Shown here in pieces: positions 3,062-62,395 of a stretch of 64,000 nt of DNA (the first letter of the stretch is position 1; the number at the start of each line of letters is the position of its first letter). Made by a program: the position numbers and the translations under genes. The notes under the pieces are model-generated. The model searched no databases. It was not told the DNA's origin and saw only the letters and a program-made list of their open reading frames with translations. Source of the DNA: Alistipes sp. (GTDB lineage Bacteria; Bacteroidota; Bacteroidia; Bacteroidales; Rikenellaceae); assembly GCA_017936685.1 (NCBI GenBank), contig JAGBFA010000010.1, forward strand, positions 1 to 64,000, read 5' to 3'.

Positions 3062-4009
3062 ATGGCACTTTTCAACTGTCCCGAATGCGGAGCACAGATC
3101 TCCGACAAGGCCGCCGCATGTCCCAAATGCGGAGTAACGATCAACCCTGCCCCCGTAGCCATTAACGCTCCCTTGCGCCGCACGCCGCGAATATCCGACC
3201 GCACGGCAGTGGGCATCATTGCTGCAATGGCCGCCGTCATGTATGGTCTGACAATGATTCCGTGGTTTATTACACTCGACGATTTCCAGCATTATATAAA
3301 CATAACAGCCTCGTACTGGGGCATAGCGGCCACAGGATTATCATTAGCAGCGACAGGATTTGCATTTACCAAACAATGGCTCGTATCGACAGCTACGACA
3401 GTCGCAGGCATGAGTGCCGCAACGGCTGCATGTTTCGATTTCAAAAACAGTATCATTATCGATGCTCCGGCCACAGACATACCGGATCATAAAATCATCT
3501 ATGCATACATGACGATATTTTTGATCGCAGGGGCAATAGCAACCGTAATCGGTGCGATAAAATCCGCAGACAAGCACCCCGACGAAAGCGAAGCATCGGC
3601 AAGCGGATCGTGGACTCAGCTTGCAGGCATAGCCATGTGTGCCATACTTTTGGCAAGTTATTATACGACGTGGAGCAAGTTTACGATAAATGAAACATCT
3701 TTGCCGATTATGGGACAAGAGTACATACTATCCAATCCGACAACAATATGTATTTGGATTGCGATATTCGGCATATCGACCGGTCGCTGGATCGCCACAG
3801 CCATTGCCGCAGGAATAAACATGCTCTACGGCATCTATACGCTGACTACCGACGGATTCTCCGGAACATACCGAGGATTTTACGATTATGATTATGAAGA
3901 GACGACTTTCGCGGGCGGAATATATTTCATGATCTTTGTGGCCGCCATGCTGCTTGTGCTATCGATAATAGCCGAAAGGCAGCAAAGAACGCAAAAGTCT
4001 GAGGCATAA
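3062..4009 (+). CDS. Zinc-ribbon multi-pass membrane protein, function unknown
   Basis: The 315-residue protein starts with a four-cysteine zinc ribbon (CPECGAQ at 6-12 and CPKCGV near 20-25), then about seven or eight hydrophobic segments between residues 45 and 310, so it is an inner-membrane protein with a cytoplasmic ribbon. The ATG at 3062 is preferred over the upstream in-frame TTG at 3056 because the ribbon begins immediately after it. No enzymatic motif is visible. It is transcribed alone, between divergent and convergent neighbours. Its promoter contains a G9 homopolymer, which suggests on/off or graded expression within a population. The function is not recognised. Confidence 0.8.
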   Translation: MALFNCPECGAQISDKAAACPKCGVTINPAPVAINAPLRRTPRISDRTAVGIIAAMAAVMYGLTMIPWFITLDDFQHYINITASYWGIAATGLSLAATGFAFTKQWLVSTATTVAGMSAATAACFDFKNSIIIDAPATDIPDHKIIYAYMTIFLIAGAIATVIGAIKSADKHPDESEASASGSWTQLAGIAMCAILLASYYTTWSKFTINETSLPIMGQEYILSNPTTICIWIAIFGISTGRWIATAIAAGINMLYGIYTLTTDGFSGTYRGFYDYDYEETTFAGGIYFMIFVAAMLLVLSIIAERQQRTQKSEA

Positions 4010-55615: not shown

Positions 55616-56194
55616 CTATTCGATCGTCTCCGGCAATCGGTCTATTTCATAGAGTCCTTTGAATACGACTCCCGAATATACGACCGAGCCAGTCTGCTCC
55701 TCTGCTTCCACGTCCGCATCGACGGCAATCGCAAAGCACCGGTTGTCGTCGGATATAAGTCCCCAAATATCATAATGTTCGAACTCCTTGATCCGGAATC
55801 GCAGATCATCGGGACGGCATAATGTTACCTCCTTTATATCGGCCGACTTCGACATATACTCGTTCCAATCGTCTTTTCGGGAAGAACCGCCGCCCATATG
55901 GATATGGAACGCGGTATATTGCTCACTCATATAACGCACTTTGGCAAGGTAACAACCCGAGAACGGCAGACTGATTACGTCGAACGAAGCGTCGATATTA
56001 CAGTAAGAAATATGTCCCTCGATCCACGGGATATAGGTACACTGTACCGCCGCGATATCATGCCCGATTTTGACAAACGGCGTTACCGGACGGTCTCGAT
56101 ACGTTCGGCAATGCCCATTGATCGTCTCCAATATGCTGCGATCGATTGCCGTCTCAGGTTTCAAACTTTTAAAATAGCTCAATAAAGCTCCCAT
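55616..56194 (-). CDS. Unknown 192-residue protein
   Basis: The protein has mixed hydrophobic and charged composition with no signal peptide and no motif I recognise. Segments such as VTPFVKIGHDIAAVQCTYIPW and GVVFKGLYEIDRL suggest a beta-rich soluble domain. Translation continues without interruption, and the opposite strand offers only short frames. It is on the same strand as the LytTR regulator, 152 bp downstream of it. Confidence 0.65.
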   Translation of the reverse strand: MGALLSYFKSLKPETAIDRSILETINGHCRTYRDRPVTPFVKIGHDIAAVQCTYIPWIEGHISYCNIDASFDVISLPFSGCYLAKVRYMSEQYTAFHIHMGGGSSRKDDWNEYMSKSADIKEVTLCRPDDLRFRIKEFEHYDIWGLISDDNRCFAIAVDADVEAEEQTGSVVYSGVVFKGLYEIDRLPETIE

Positions 56195-56346
56195 ACATCA
56201 TTCTTTTCTCTCCTACTCTGTTTACTATTCGGCTTTTCGGATTACGCCGTCGCGTGAATTCACGACATAAAGATAGATGACGCGTCCGTCCGCACTGCAA
56301 TCGGTTCGACAGGAGAAAGAAATATGCAACTAACGGCAGTATCGGA

Positions 56347-56826
56347 CTATTTCTTATGACGTCTTACTCCCAAGAAGATGAAACGGTCGAGAAATGCCGT
56401 CCTGTACTCTCTGCCAATGGTCAGCAACCGGCCCCCTATTTTCAGACTGTTGCCCGTCAATGATTCGATATGTGTGAGATTGACTATGCCCGAACGGCGT
56501 ATTCGGACAAATCTGTTCGGCGGAAGCTCCTTCTCTATGACCGCCAGATTGAACGAAACGACCATGCTGCGGCCGTTGGTCAGATGTATCACGCTATAAC
56601 TTCTGTCGGCCTCCACCCACAGTATATCCTCCAACGATACTTTGAGATAGCCGTTATTTCGCCATATAAACGCATACTCCTTGACAGGCGACTCCGTATC
56701 GGACGCATGCGACGGCGTATCTATGCCCACGACCAGTTCGTCCCGAACCGACCCACCGACGACACGGACAGGCAGATCCGCCAAATGTTTCGGCAGAATA
56801 ATCGTTAATTGCTTGTTTTGTCTCAT
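56347..56826 (-). CDS. LytTR-domain DNA-binding regulator without receiver domain
   Basis: The 159-residue protein has a short N-terminal region (about 1-48) without a receiver or membrane domain, then a LytTR DNA-binding domain (about 50-150; NGYLKVSLEDILWVEADRSY, NRFVRIRRSGIVNLTHIESL). LytTR proteins bind direct repeats upstream of targets. It follows the DUF2589 operon in the same direction, after a terminator, so it is a candidate local regulator of that operon. Confidence 0.87.
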   Translation of the reverse strand: MRQNKQLTIILPKHLADLPVRVVGGSVRDELVVGIDTPSHASDTESPVKEYAFIWRNNGYLKVSLEDILWVEADRSYSVIHLTNGRSMVVSFNLAVIEKELPPNRFVRIRRSGIVNLTHIESLTGNSLKIGGRLLTIGREYRTAFLDRFIFLGVRRHKK

Positions 56827-56985
56827 TTTGGTGCATATTATCTACAAATCAAATACTTATCGGGCATCTGCGCAAAGTTGTTTTGCATACTCCCGTAATT
56901 TTGTACCAAACGCATTTGCAGATAGCCGTCAGCAAGCCCGACAAAGATATGCGCAGGCTGTCGATTCTTCGCCATCGGCCGACGA

Positions 56986-57027
56986 AAACGGAGTATGTCG
57001 AGACGTGAATTTCGGCATACTCCGTTT
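56986..57027 (-). terminator. Terminator after the DUF2589 operon
   Basis: AAACGGAGTATGTCGA (56986-57001) pairs with the segment ending CATACTCCGTTT (57013-57027), with a T run on the minus strand. It ends the five-gene operon 24 bp after its last stop. Confidence 0.82.
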
Positions 57028-57050
57028 AAAATGTGAGATGACAACCCTCT

Positions 57051-57494
57051 CTATTGCGGAGAGCGGAATATCACCCTGCACCTCTTCAAGTCGCTTCTGC
57101 CGGCGAACGACAGCGCAAGTGAAGCAAACCCGCCGTCGGCATCACACTCCGTATAACGCACTTCAATCAGCTCCGATTCATACCGTTGGGTTGAGCCGAA
57201 GCGTTTTCGCTCGGACAGCGGCAGGATCCAGTTAATGATGGTTCCGAATGCCTCGTCGGCGGAAGCGAAGCCGGTATAATACCACACGCCACCGGATAGA
57301 GCGGCATCTGAGCCTGCGACATCATCACGGACAAATTCATAAAAAAGCCTTTCGGTCTGCTCCTCGCACGACAGCTCCGACATGTGAGCCTCCGCACGAA
57401 CCTCATACTCGGGCTGCGTCTCTCTCGGCTGCCGGTTTTCGCCGCAGCCATACAGGCAGAGAACTGCCATCAATGTAATTGCGATCTGTCTCAT
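57051..57494 (-). CDS. Small lipoprotein of the DUF2589 operon
   Basis: The 147-residue protein has a lipoprotein signal ending CLYGC (C17), then a polar linker and a compact alpha/beta domain (FYEFVRDDVAGSDA, GGVWYYTGFASADEAFGT). No family was recognised. It is the last gene of the five-gene operon, 13 bp after the zinc-ribbon gene. Confidence 0.72.
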   Translation of the reverse strand: MRQIAITLMAVLCLYGCGENRQPRETQPEYEVRAEAHMSELSCEEQTERLFYEFVRDDVAGSDAALSGGVWYYTGFASADEAFGTIINWILPLSERKRFGSTQRYESELIEVRYTECDADGGFASLALSFAGRSDLKRCRVIFRSPQ

Positions 57495-57507
57495 AATATG
57501 GTATGTT

Positions 57508-57762
57508 TTAACCTCTGAACGTTCTTGTCTCGTCTACCCTGTCGCATGCCTGCTCGATCTTTTTCAATGCGTCCAACGCCCGTTTGGATTGCATCTTGTT
57601 TATGGTCAGCTGCAATCCGCAATGAGGGCATTCGATCCCGTTCTTATATATAAGGTCGTGAATGCTCACCGGCATGAATCCCCTGCATATCGGGCAGTGC
57701 ATTCCGTATGGCCGCTGACCGTGTAGCGGCGATTGCATCTCGGACATCTGTTTTATAGGCAT
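57508..57762 (-). CDS. Small zinc-ribbon protein of the DUF2589 operon
   Basis: The 84-residue protein has HCPICRGF near 22 and ECPHCGLQ near 44, four cysteines likely to bind zinc, and a helical C-terminal tail (SKRALDALKKIEQACDRV). Such ribbons often mediate nucleic acid or protein contacts. It is 41 bp after the second DUF2589 gene and 13 bp before the lipoprotein gene. Confidence 0.75.
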   Translation of the reverse strand: MPIKQMSEMQSPLHGQRPYGMHCPICRGFMPVSIHDLIYKNGIECPHCGLQLTINKMQSKRALDALKKIEQACDRVDETRTFRG

Positions 57763-57803
57763 AATATCGATATTGAATTATTGTTTCATTGATATACTTT
57801 ACA

Positions 57804-58430
57804 TTACACAGGCACTATCTCGGCCGGATCAGAAAAAGGTGCGGAGGTATCGGATATGTCCGATGCCATATTGTTGACAGCCTTGTTCAACAGGGCGGAC
57901 AGACCGCCCGGAATATCGGCCTGCCGCATCTTGACATGAACCTTCATATTGGCACTCAATCCGCCAGACCTCTGCATCGAACCCGATGTCTGCCCGCCGG
58001 TGCTTGCCAGAGCGACTCGCAGCCGCGTATCGCCGTTCACGGAATCACCGGCTTCACTTCGGCCGGCCTCGAACGAGAACGATGTTTGCTGCTGCCTGCT
58101 CGATGCGTCCAGCACCTGAATATCGAAATCGAAATCGGCCTCCTGCACCTGCAACAGAGGCAGCGGCACCAATGTCAGAACAGGTATCCTGACCGACTGC
58201 ATACGCACTCCGCTAAGGTCATGGCTCCTGTAATTGAACGTAAGCATACGCAATGCACCCGTCTTTCCGGTTGCGGGATCATAGGTTTCGAAGGCTATTT
58301 TCATCAGGTAGTCCAGATACCGCTGCGTCGAGAGCGAGTCGGCATCGACCGTAGCGACCAAAGGCGCGGCTATCAGGTCTTTCAACTCCATGACCTGACT
58401 GCTTATCCTCTCCGTATTATCATTGTTCAT
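57804..58430 (-). CDS. DUF2589 family protein (short form)
   Basis: The 208-residue protein has the DUF2589 pattern: an N-terminal helix (VMELKDLIAAPLVATVDAD), then beta strands with LRMLTFNYR, RIPVLTLVPLPLLQVQEADFDFDIQVL and a C-terminal VHVKMRQADIPGGLSALLNKAV. It lacks the charged C-terminal coiled coil of the larger paralogue upstream. DUF2589 has no established function. It is 21 bp after the 260-residue gene. Confidence 0.82.
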   Translation of the reverse strand: MNNDNTERISSQVMELKDLIAAPLVATVDADSLSTQRYLDYLMKIAFETYDPATGKTGALRMLTFNYRSHDLSGVRMQSVRIPVLTLVPLPLLQVQEADFDFDIQVLDASSRQQQTSFSFEAGRSEAGDSVNGDTRLRVALASTGGQTSGSMQRSGGLSANMKVHVKMRQADIPGGLSALLNKAVNNMASDISDTSAPFSDPAEIVPV

Positions 58431-58451
58431 GACTGTATGTTTGCAAATCGG

Positions 58452-59234
58452 TTAAAACTCCTCCGTATCGGTATCGAGGGGCAGATCTCGCGGAGATATT
58501 CTCAGCCGCAGGGTATGGATAGATTCTTCGGGCAGTTTGGACAAGGCCTCGGACGAAACCTCTACATTCAATGACGCATACTTTTCACGACGCGCAAGCC
58601 TCACATCTTTCAGAATCCTCGGCAGCATGATTTGCAGATTTGTCTGCAAACTCTCACGCACGTTTTTTCTCAGATTTCCCGACATATCCGCCGCAAACAC
58701 CTCTTCCAGATCAGAATGCGACAGGAACTGCTCGTCGGCAATATAGAGAATATCCTCCTGCAACCTGTCGACATCGATCTCGCCCTCCAAAGAGATGAAC
58801 TCCGCACGATGGCCGTTGAGGTGTCCGCGAAGCCTGCGGCTCAGAAAAGCCGTGAACTCCCTGCGCAGCGTCCGCTCCCGATTGAGTCGGGCGACGGGGC
58901 CTTCACCTTCGCCCGAATCGCCCGAGTGCCGTATGATCGCAGTGAGAATGCACGATACGATAACCTCCGAAATCCCCTCCGAGATCGTCCGTATGGCACG
59001 CAATACTGCTGCGTGGTCGGTTTCGCATATCTCCCCCGGCACAGACTCATCGACGAATCCGCAATGCAGCGTCAGCTCCACTTCTCCCAGAGATACCGAC
59101 GGAGGAGTCAGTGCGGCCGCGCTATTCCGGTCGCGATAGGCCGGAGAGAGCCTGACCGCATACATGTTAGCCTCATGTTGCGCCGCCACCATATCGCGCA
59201 ATATCGCACCCAATATCGTACTTAACCGAGCCAT
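58452..59234 (-). CDS. Unknown 260-residue protein of the DUF2589 operon
   Basis: The protein opens with an amphipathic helix (STILGAILRDMVAAQHEAN) and then a beta segment GEVELTLHCGFVDES, a layout echoing its DUF2589 neighbours. The middle is helical and arginine-rich (RERTLRREFTAFLSRRLRGHL), and the end is beta (TLRLRISPRDLPLD). No family was recognised. It is 16 bp after the large DUF2589 gene and 21 bp before the short one, so the products probably act together. Confidence 0.72.
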   Translation of the reverse strand: MARLSTILGAILRDMVAAQHEANMYAVRLSPAYRDRNSAAALTPPSVSLGEVELTLHCGFVDESVPGEICETDHAAVLRAIRTISEGISEVIVSCILTAIIRHSGDSGEGEGPVARLNRERTLRREFTAFLSRRLRGHLNGHRAEFISLEGEIDVDRLQEDILYIADEQFLSHSDLEEVFAADMSGNLRKNVRESLQTNLQIMLPRILKDVRLARREKYASLNVEVSSEALSKLPEESIHTLRLRISPRDLPLDTDTEEF

Positions 59235-59250
59235 AGGCTTCTATCGGCCA

Positions 59251-60336
59251 TTATTTTCTGACATTGCCTCCGTTTTGATCTGCCGGCTGCTGTCGCTTGG
59301 CGGCGTTCTTAGTCTCTTCCCGAGACTCTTCCTCCTCCATCTTGCGCACACGCTCCTGCGACTCGGCCAGATCCTTGGCACGCTGATCGTCTATGGACTT
59401 GCGTCTCTGAGTGATTGCCGCCTGCATGTCGGCCAGACGCTTCTTGTCGCTCTCCTCGCGCTCGATGCGTGCCAACTCGCGGTTCTTCTGATCGGTATAT
59501 GTATCGACCGTCTTTACGACGACCTTTTTGTCGATGCCCGACACGCCGACAATATACGACGTGGTTTTGCCCTCGACCACCGGCAGGCGGAAGATCATGT
59601 TGTCGCCGTCGACCTCCCCTGTCTGCCCCGGGATCTGAATCTTCGACGGCTCGAAGATGCCGTCGCGGTTTTTATAGGTTGCAATGAGCATGAACTCCTC
59701 GCTCGGCGAGCCTTTGAATTCGAGAGAATTGACCTCCAACGTACCCGACGGATCGCATACGTCGAGACTGTTTCCGAGGATTTCGAGCACCTTGGCCAGT
59801 CCGGCAGGCATGCTGTCCTGTCCGGCCTTTACTGCCACGTCCATCGTGTACTCCACACTGTATTTCGACTCCTGTGTCGCCGTAGAGTCTTTCTTGCTCG
59901 AATAGTTGGCATGGAAGTCGGCATTTATCTTGAAAAGGCCGAGATTCAACGACGTGGAGCCGGCGACACCGGCATCGACCGAGGTGCTTTCGTTTTCTAC
60001 CGTCGAGCTGGACGACGAGGCATTTATGTTGGCTTTGAATGCGATATCTATCGACTGTATTGCAATGTAGGGAATCGGGACGATGGTCAGCAGCGGGACA
60101 TTGAGCTGCGCCATACGGCCGTCCTTGATGAACTGGAACGAGACGTTCACCGTCTTCTTCTCGCCGGTTTCGGGATCTGTATTGAGCCCGACCTCCTGAA
60201 TGAAGTTCCACGATGTCTTGGCGGCCATGGCCTGAGCCTCGATGCAGGCTTTGAGCGGTCCGCCGATGATATTGCCGAAAGGAAGTGCGGCCAGCGCATT
60301 GGTCGCAACTTGCGACGGGGTGGTGTCGATTGCCAT
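59251..60336 (-). CDS. DUF2589 family protein with C-terminal coiled coil
   Basis: The 361-residue protein has a DUF2589 domain over about residues 1-190 (LPFGNIIGGPLKACIEAQAMAA, VSFQFIKDGRMAQLNVPLLT, IVPIPYIAIQSIDIAFKANI). A second beta-rich part follows (about 195-275), then a strongly charged coiled coil (about 280-345; RELARIEREESDKKRLADMQ). The coiled coil suggests oligomerisation or scaffolding. It is the first gene of the operon, 53 bp after a perfect TATATTTG -7 box. The family has no known function. Confidence 0.85.
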   Translation of the reverse strand: MAIDTTPSQVATNALAALPFGNIIGGPLKACIEAQAMAAKTSWNFIQEVGLNTDPETGEKKTVNVSFQFIKDGRMAQLNVPLLTIVPIPYIAIQSIDIAFKANINASSSSSTVENESTSVDAGVAGSTSLNLGLFKINADFHANYSSKKDSTATQESKYSVEYTMDVAVKAGQDSMPAGLAKVLEILGNSLDVCDPSGTLEVNSLEFKGSPSEEFMLIATYKNRDGIFEPSKIQIPGQTGEVDGDNMIFRLPVVEGKTTSYIVGVSGIDKKVVVKTVDTYTDQKNRELARIEREESDKKRLADMQAAITQRRKSIDDQRAKDLAESQERVRKMEEEESREETKNAAKRQQPADQNGGNVRK

Positions 60337-60388: not shown

Positions 60389-60396
60389 CAAATATA
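60389..60396 (-). promoter_or_regulatory. DUF2589 operon -7 promoter element
   Basis: TATATTTG on the minus strand is a perfect -7 box about 53 bp before the first DUF2589 start. The -33 region has only a partial match (GTTG, 22 bp away). Confidence 0.5.
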
Positions 60397-60514: not shown

Positions 60515-60562
60515 GATAAAAACTGCCTTGCCGCTGTATCGACTGATACAGCGGCAAGGCAG
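60515..60562 (-). terminator. Strong terminator after the fimbrillin-like gene
   Basis: A perfect 18-bp stem (60523-60540 with 60545-60562) has a 4-nt loop and a T run on the minus strand. It separates the fimbrillin gene from the DUF2589 operon promoter. Confidence 0.88.
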
Positions 60563-60589: not shown

Positions 60590-62395
60590 CTACTCTACGT
60601 CACGCACGCATCTTACATAATTGGCATCGGGACCGGTAGTGGTGCCGCCGCCGTTGCGCGGAGTAGCGGCAAACGACCACGTTGCCGGATTACGGCCGCC
60701 GCGGCCGGAAACCATGCTCGCCACCCAATAGGCCCCGGCATTAAGCGGAGTAAATCCTGCCACGCCGTACAGCGGCGTATCGCACACGGGCATGTTGTCG
60801 GCATCATACGAACTCTCGACCGCACCGCCCACGGTAAAGATGAGTGCCATCTCCATCATAGTCGGTTTACGCCAACCCTCGGGGCATGCGAACTGGCTCC
60901 ATACGACTTTGTCGGCCATGGCGTCACTATTCATCACTTGGAGTTTACGAGAGATTTTGTCGAGCTCGGTTCCACTGTCATGATCCGGGGTCGTCTTCCA
61001 GTTGTCATGAAACACCTGTACCTCCGAATTATAGGCCGCAACGTATGATGAAGGCACTACGCCCCCATCGGCATCACGCGACACGATAATCGGGCCTTCC
61101 GGATCGCTCGTATCCACCCACGGATATTTCCGGCCGCCCTCGGGAGCACTCCTGACACAGCGTGCGGCAGTGATACCCTCCTTGGGCATATACAGTCCCA
61201 TCCACGGCATGATGTTGTATCCCATCGCATTATCGGAAGAGACCTCTTTCGAAGTGGTAGAGCACCAGTACGAAGCATATCGGAAATTGTTGTTTTCGAT
61301 GCCGTTCATATAAAACAATATCATCAGTTCCTCGTTATAAGTGGGAAGTCTGTATCCGGCAGCACTGCACTCGGCCGTAGCGTCCGCCCAACTTATGTTG
61401 GCAGCCTGGCAAGCATCGGTAGGTGCTATGAGAAATGCCGAGCTGGCATTGTCGGTATAATCGAGCGGCATCTCGTCGGGAATGACCAGCTCGACGAAAT
61501 ACTCTTCCGAGGGCTTTACCTGAAACAGGCTTTCGAACGGGAAGCCGATATTCTCACCGTCGACCGTAACAACGATACGGGCATTGTAGGAGAAGTTCTG
61601 AGGAATCAGATAGAGGAATCCGTCCTCCGCCGTAACATCGGTCATGGTCTCTGAGGCGATCAGGTAATCCTTGCCCTCTTCCAAACGCAGCCCGAGTTCA
61701 TACTCGGTCGAAGAGTATTCGAGAGCCGGAGACCATACCACCGATTTATCATCGGCAATATCGAGCGAGAGCCGACCCTCATCTTGAATGCCGCGCACTG
61801 CGATCCGCGAGATCTTCTGGCCATGGCCTTTGACCTTGAAGCCGATCTTCGACATGACCGAGTTGAATTTCAAACTGACAGGCAGATTGACACTCGACAC
61901 ATTCATGCGAGATGCCGCTACGCATATATCGGTATGGCACTCTTTCGACGACGGAGTCTTATAGGTCAATACGGGGGCTCCCTGCAACGAACCGTCGCTC
62001 ACACCTATGCCGTTTTCGGCACCGGCATGCGGGCCATAGGCGAAAAAGGTGATCTTGGAGTTGCCGGGCCACTCCTCGACAGGCTCGTAGGTCCACGTCC
62101 CGCCGACATTTTCAAGCAGCTGGTCGACCATAAGATTAGGAGTAAGACCTGCATTCCACGCTCCGTTGCCCGTGTCGAAAGCGAATATGCCGAGAGTTTC
62201 GGGTACGGAACCCGAAAACTCCGGAGCGAATACGATCTTCTTATTCGGGACGGGTTCGGGGACGGGGTTATCGGCAACATCATCGTCGCCGCAACCGGTT
62301 GCAGTCAGAGATAGCGAAAAAACAGCCGTTACAAGGCCAAGGCGTTTAAGCAAAGATTCGAACATCATAAAGCAAGAATTTTTAAGGTTTGTCAT
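60590..62395 (-). CDS. Fimbrillin-like lipoprotein with C-terminal FISUMP/DUF1566-like region
   Basis: The 601-residue protein has a lipoprotein signal with LSLTATGC, then an acidic DDD stretch. Next comes a Mfa/fimbrillin-like beta domain (about 45-325; IVFAPEFSGSVPETLGIFAFD and VSLKFNSVMSKIGFKVKG). Two C-terminal segments follow with the W-DATAEC-GYRLPTYNEE and CPEGWRKPTMMEM pattern of FISUMP/DUF1566 domains. Start at ATG 62395; a second choice at 62368 (MMFESLL) gives the same signal. It is probably a surface adhesin or pilus-associated protein. A promoter lies about 37 bp upstream, and the TPR/AraC gene precedes it. Confidence 0.82.
   Translation of the reverse strand: MTNLKNSCFMMFESLLKRLGLVTAVFSLSLTATGCGDDDVADNPVPEPVPNKKIVFAPEFSGSVPETLGIFAFDTGNGAWNAGLTPNLMVDQLLENVGGTWTYEPVEEWPGNSKITFFAYGPHAGAENGIGVSDGSLQGAPVLTYKTPSSKECHTDICVAASRMNVSSVNLPVSLKFNSVMSKIGFKVKGHGQKISRIAVRGIQDEGRLSLDIADDKSVVWSPALEYSSTEYELGLRLEEGKDYLIASETMTDVTAEDGFLYLIPQNFSYNARIVVTVDGENIGFPFESLFQVKPSEEYFVELVIPDEMPLDYTDNASSAFLIAPTDACQAANISWADATAECSAAGYRLPTYNEELMILFYMNGIENNNFRYASYWCSTTSKEVSSDNAMGYNIMPWMGLYMPKEGITAARCVRSAPEGGRKYPWVDTSDPEGPIIVSRDADGGVVPSSYVAAYNSEVQVFHDNWKTTPDHDSGTELDKISRKLQVMNSDAMADKVVWSQFACPEGWRKPTMMEMALIFTVGGAVESSYDADNMPVCDTPLYGVAGFTPLNAGAYWVASMVSGRGGRNPATWSFAATPRNGGGTTTGPDANYVRCVRDVE

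Follow-up and report, generated by a model that had tools for sequence, protein, structure and literature searches.

A conserved DUF2589 gene module in Alistipes sp. with recurrent hydrolase neighbours: a possible cytoplasmic system for antagonism

DUF2589 (PF11655) is a protein family without an assigned function. In the literature searched, DUF2589 was mentioned only in PMC3949148, an excerpt of which describes Archaeoglobus DUF2589 genes as up-regulated on lactate; PF11655 was not mentioned and no functional account was found, and a wider search of titles and abstract starts returned nothing recognised as the gene module described here. This module lies in a 64,000-nucleotide stretch of DNA from Alistipes sp. 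(assembly GCA_017936685.1, contig JAGBFA010000010.1, positions 1 to 64,000; hereafter the window), in an operon of five genes termed D1, B, D2, Z and E. D1 and D2 are members of PF11655 above its cut-off, whereas B, Z and a flanking protein, X, lie outside it and reach the cut-off of no other family. The first four genes recur in the order D-B-D-Z across several phyla, and genes for hydrolases recur beside them.

The module shares features with several described systems and differs from each. Polymorphic toxin systems combine a shared N-domain, a variable toxin C-terminus and an immunity gene, a pattern seen directly after D-B-D-Z in one relative (L100); the window operon, however, has no adjoining toxin gene and the module has no known delivery machine. 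Envelope-attacking hydrolases without signal peptides are typical cargo of contractile injection systems and type VI secretion systems (T6SS), and hydrolases without signal peptides are likewise found near the module, but the window genome (89% complete) gave no match to the contractile sheath (PF17482; the search matched 3 of 14 controls) or to T6SS VipB/TssC (PF05943; 1 of 14 controls). Of 38 genomes that have DUF2589, 9 gave a sheath match and 1 a VipB match; of 32 genomes that lack it, 6 gave a sheath match, one of them below cut-off, and none a VipB match. On these counts, and with neither protein matched in the window genome, a role as an accessory of contractile machines looks unlikely and was rejected, there being no association of sheath or VipB with DUF2589. 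The likeness to phage lysis cassettes resides in the muramidases of relatives, which belong to PF11860, carry PG_binding_1 and lack a signal peptide. The module differs in that no holin-like gene was identified, no search aimed at holins having been made, and in that viral and phage sequences yielded relatives in just a single viral contig and a single phage record, the latter unannotated. The novelty of the module lies in its core proteins, which match none of the described systems that were compared; effectors, where they occur, belong to a known kind.

The five minus-strand open reading frames (ORFs) reported at 57051-60336 in a preliminary description of the stretch were all verified, in the order D1, B, D2, Z, E (Table 1). 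The gaps, given there as 13-41 bp, measure 16, 21, 41 and 13 bp from D1 to E, a spacing from which the five genes would be expected to form one transcript. The assignment of two DUF2589 proteins was upheld, with D1 (P0001) and D2 (P0003) scoring 95.5 and 64.4 bits against a curated PF11655 cut-off of 23 bits, and these are the only DUF2589 matches found in the window genome. The coiled coil attributed to one of the pair is supported by a predicted 69-residue helix at residues 280-348 of D1, the C-terminal part of which differs among loci. B (P0002) has no Pfam, NCBIfam or PADLOC family at an E-value of 1 or below, falls below PF11655 membership and gives a single PHROG match of unknown function (E-value 0.03). 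Its layout had been likened to that of its neighbours, and this likeness is explained as distant similarity: profile-profile comparison (hhalign) matches B to DUF2589 across the N-terminal helix and first strands (E-value 3e-5, probability 73%), and by this measure B is a distant relative of the family. The single-chain structure model of B has a mean predicted local distance difference test score (pLDDT) of 89.4. No export signal was seen in D1 or B, and no solved-structure relative of the module was found.

Table 1. Features of the operon and its surroundings, in coordinates of the window.
Feature	Position	Strand	Description	Evidence
X	55616..56194	-	192-aa protein, possible effector or adaptor	family near DUF2589 genes
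LytTR gene	56347..56826	-	stand-alone LytTR DNA-binding protein, likely regulator, 159 aa	PF04397 51.7 bits
Hairpin	56986..57027	-	3' of E, possible terminator or regulator site	12-bp stem, z -2.9
E (P0005)	57051..57494	-	lipoprotein-like, 147 aa	signal heuristic; no family at cut-off; not conserved
Z (P0004)	57508..57762	-	four-Cys zinc ribbon	Cys pattern; same slot in D-B-D-Z loci
D2 (P0003)	57804..58430	-	second DUF2589 protein, 208 aa	PF11655 64.4 bits
B (P0002)	58452..59234	-	distant DUF2589 relative, 260 aa	hhalign E-value 3e-5, mean pLDDT 89.4
D1 (P0001)	59251..60336	-	DUF2589 protein, Ig-like domain and C-terminal coiled coil, 361 aa	
TATATTTG element	60389..60396	-	before D1	Bacteroidota-type -7
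Terminator-like site	60523..60562	-	of preceding gene, upstream boundary	18-bp stem and T-run, strong

Among 64 non-redundant loci, 17 read D-B-D-Z, with two further expanded forms, and 26 read D-B-H, in which H is an alternative helical third gene. The D-B-D-Z order ranges over Bacteroidota, Ignavibacteria, Nitrospinota and Alphaproteobacteria, and its sister form D-B-H extends to archaea, methanogens among them. Recurrence of D-B-D-Z is far too wide for chance, and the gene order put forward in the preliminary description is conserved for the first four genes and not for E, which was found in 1 of 200 genomes of the bacterial family, namely its own. Gene calls in these loci come from a simple script that placed family hits before the longest ORF; some neighbours are therefore spurious, and the locus strings and counts depend on the script. 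Within its range DUF2589 is patchy (11 of 150 family genomes; 28 of 395 genomes of the phylum), and all seven of the 200 family genomes with a B relative also carry two DUF2589 matches. Scans of viral sequences returned no relative with P0001 alone and one contig with a wider alignment (A3), and the phage records held one relative in an unannotated 4-kb record. Plasmid searches gave four records with P0001, four with another DUF2589 protein, one of these new, and none with P0003. The viral contig (L166, IMGVR_UViG_2588254255_000001) carries a 166-aa gene, a patatin gene and DUF2589, the same string as in L062 and L066.

A hydrolase or peptidoglycan-binding gene was found by hand count near the module in 19 of the 64 loci (L054, L058, L061, L062, L064, L066, L069, L071, L074, L077, L085, L100, L103, L125, L130, L147, L150, L151 and L166), most often an N-acetylmuramidase without a signal peptide. 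Pfam identifies N-acetylmuramidase with PG_binding_1 in L053 and L130, Peptidase_M15_3 in L054, GH25 in L071, CHAP in L069, patatin in L062, a trypsin-like protease in L064 and a papain-like one in L103, and subtilases lie 8-11 bp past D-B-H in L061, L063 and L074. In a family scan of 57 downstream genes, PG_binding_1 occurred in five, Muramidase in four and Peptidase_S8 in two (the 25 commonest of 51 families). A control set of 57 genes, each separated from the module by five genes or more, contained no such family with two members, and the single matches among the 25 commonest of its 89 families included one LysM, one M19 and one S46 peptidase. The near set comprised 57 of 58 downstream genes, L109:11709-14465 being omitted as a likely spurious ORF, and the far set was the first 63 of 275 genes less six ORFs that run off an edge; both sets were drawn from downstream and distant genes, apart from the 31 upstream genes. 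Muramidase is present in 12 of the 200 family genomes, ten of which belong to one genus without a listed DUF2589 match, and in the remaining two (G003 and G026) it adjoins D-B-D-Z. An independent pairing is found on a delta-proteobacterial plasmid, where two DUF2589 genes are followed two kilobases on by a Muramidase gene (E-value 1.9e-66) and where our models detected no B, H or Z. By a signal heuristic, all 13 muramidase-type rows lack a signal peptide, L053 and L125 being one locus.

Some of these hydrolases have exported or membrane partners. The muramidases of L053 and L130 are each accompanied by a membrane or lipoprotein-like protein, and the two proteins belong to the same family (30% identity, E-value 4e-11). 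In L100, from Bacteroidales, D-B-D-Z is followed immediately by a polymorphic-toxin-like array with a shared N-domain and lysozyme-like and HExxH C-termini, an exported protein standing after each of three genes. The N-domain profile was built from three of the four array genes, which match it for that reason, so that only the fourth match (E-value 3e-6) is independent; the first toxin (3246-3971) was called short at its start.

Other genes near the module were observed in passing. An SpvB/TcdB-type Pfam gene lies ~230 bp past a D-B-H operon (L079:2622-6818), and a related protein of 121-142 aa with an HGN...C pattern is found downstream of the module at L073:6631-6996, where it has no Pfam or NCBIfam family, and at L076:9597-10025. 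By eye, a similar ~90-aa protein occurs near DUF2589 genes on a Vibrio plasmid, on a delta-proteobacterial plasmid and in one further genome (L207:8905-9180, L208:8909-9172, L085:4100-4357), and an HEQDH-motif family of HExxH type past D-B-H in one archaeal and three bacterial loci (L107:2081-2305, L113:10177-10404, L117:10172-10723, L143:10034-10585), the proteins of L117 and L143 having no Pfam family. An NCBIfam search with ten neighbours and X gave one irrelevant match.

The last two genes of the operon differ in their conservation. Z carries the CPIC...CPHC pattern, in line with the four-cysteine zinc ribbon first noted for it, and its family matches are all below cut-off. In the PADLOC library of known and candidate anti-phage defence systems it matched the candidate model PDC-M14A over the ribbon (4e-4), and D1, B, D2 and E gave no match. 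E has a lipoprotein-like N-terminus by heuristic (MRQIAITLMAVLCLYGC), which bears out its description as a lipoprotein; it has no family at cut-off in the Pfam, NCBIfam, PHROG and PADLOC libraries, and none of the solved structures compared was similar. Prevotella-type loci have proteins of 140-176 aa that separate Z from the muramidase, and kinship of E to these was rejected, E going unreported even at an E-value of 100 or below. Orphan immunity proteins in Bacteroidales are mentioned in an excerpt of PMC10470768, and this might be the kind of role that E has, possibly as a leftover protective protein.

The locus may be larger than the operon. The LytTR gene 224 bp past E is related in sequence to LytTR genes of other loci, which stand immediately upstream of D1 in 16 rows, all of them D-B-D-Z and one locus (L053/L125) being counted twice; the position of the window gene is thus different. 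Between E and this gene (56827-57050) GCATACTCC is seen by eye twice as a direct repeat, a possible LytTR site. X has no Pfam or NCBIfam family at an E-value of 0.01 or below, and its relatives were found in 3 of the 200 family genomes, its own included; a weaker relative in L052 (genome G025; two-sequence E-value 3e-7) was not returned by that search. X lies at most 65 bp from a DUF2589 gene in L052 and in G582 (L186), directly beside DUF2589 matches in G556 (L185) and 1.6 kb from D2 in the window, so that each of the four genomes in which its family was found has DUF2589 genes next to it or close by. From these neighbour patterns the locus may extend from 55616 to 60336, with the LytTR gene and X belonging to it and X possibly serving as effector or adaptor.

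The terminator said to end the unit is borne out only in part. It corresponds to a 12-bp hairpin ~23 bases past E (z -2.9), for which 3 of 200 shuffles were equally good and which was not among the sites listed by a terminator scan. Upstream, TATATTTG starts 60 bases ahead of D1 and matches what we take to be the Bacteroidota -7 consensus. Beyond the strong terminator of the preceding gene lies a 601-aa lipoprotein-like gene (60590-62395) with no relative among the searched ORFs of other loci.

We tentatively interpret the module, giving this rather less than an even chance, as a LytTR-controlled cytoplasmic assembly that serves antagonism by carrying or loading hydrolases which attack the cell wall. 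What was observed directly is the conservation of the module, the recurrence of hydrolase genes beside it and, in one relative, the toxin-like array with exported partners. D1, B, D2 and Z would form the core of a patchily distributed system under LytTR control, in which the two DUF2589 proteins and B probably co-assemble via beta hairpins and the amphipathic helices at their N-termini, Z being a small accessory. Such an assembly would carry or load hydrolases without signal peptides (muramidases, endopeptidases and proteases), these would attack the envelope of other cells, and the exported proteins beside some of them would protect the producer. Several observations weigh against such a role. 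The module itself contains no ATPase, channel or sheath, and no exit route from the cell is apparent. No hydrolase was recognised in 45 of the 64 loci (hand count; some stop at contig edges), including nearly all Algoriphagus and most delta-proteobacterial and archaeal loci; since archaea lack murein, wall hydrolases cannot be the whole story. The toxin-like array occurs in one locus only, and the window has at 55616-60336 neither an adjacent toxin nor a shared-N-domain toxin with an immunity gene. The muramidase PF11860 gave no match in the window genome, in a search that matched no control either, and a Vibrio plasmid gene annotated as peptidoglycan-binding has no Pfam match. A signal or membrane start was flagged by heuristic on 3 of 24 hydrolase-type rows and on the GH25 protein of L071, and E is without similarity to the exported protein of L053.

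The lack of an exit route and of a toxin at the window is the reason why antagonism is proposed only tentatively and why two rivals are kept as serious. If the module were a general scaffold or stress assembly in the cytoplasm, not specially tied to hydrolases, the hydrolase genes would be co-passengers of variable islands. This would account for the hydrolase-free majority of loci, for the presence of the module in archaea and for the lactate response in the excerpt of PMC3949148. We regard it as unlikely, however, given that Muramidase recurs beside DUF2589 both in Bacteroidales and on the delta-proteobacterial plasmid, and that no such family had two members among the distant genes (25 commonest of 89 families). 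Alternatively the muramidases may be endolysin-like and act on the producing cell, the DUF2589 assembly governing lysis, product release or wall remodelling; a PF11860 and PG_binding_1 layout without a signal peptide, as seen here, is also that of phage endolysins. The proteases, the patatin and the L100 array with its exported partners do not fit such self-directed action, nor do the absence of an identified holin-like gene (in searches not aimed at holins) and the near absence of viral relatives, and we consider it distinctly unlikely. The preliminary description had proposed a self-assembling, envelope-linked structure anchored by the lipoprotein. In its favour are the paired DUF2589 proteins, the related B, the coiled coil and Ig-like domain of D1 and the lipoprotein gene 13 bp past Z; against it, E was found in 1 of 200 family genomes, D1 and B show no export signal and the C-terminal part of D1 varies between loci, and as a whole the proposal appears highly improbable. 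The widest form of the antagonism reading, in which D-B-D-Z and D-B-H are the core of an undescribed non-contractile cytoplasmic system delivering wall-attacking and other hydrolases that lack signal peptides to competitors, and occurring in both bacteria and archaea, is one we put forward as rather doubtful.

The module is conserved from gut Bacteroidales to Alphaproteobacteria, with its sister form in methanogens, and has no solved relative; a repeated gene neighbourhood ties it to wall-attacking hydrolases and once to a toxin-like array. Should the hydrolase link prove causal, the contractile systems would be joined by a separate principle of loading or delivery. The module may, if the reading of antagonism is true, be part of an undescribed microbial weapon, and its defined gene set can now be tested in tractable gut strains.
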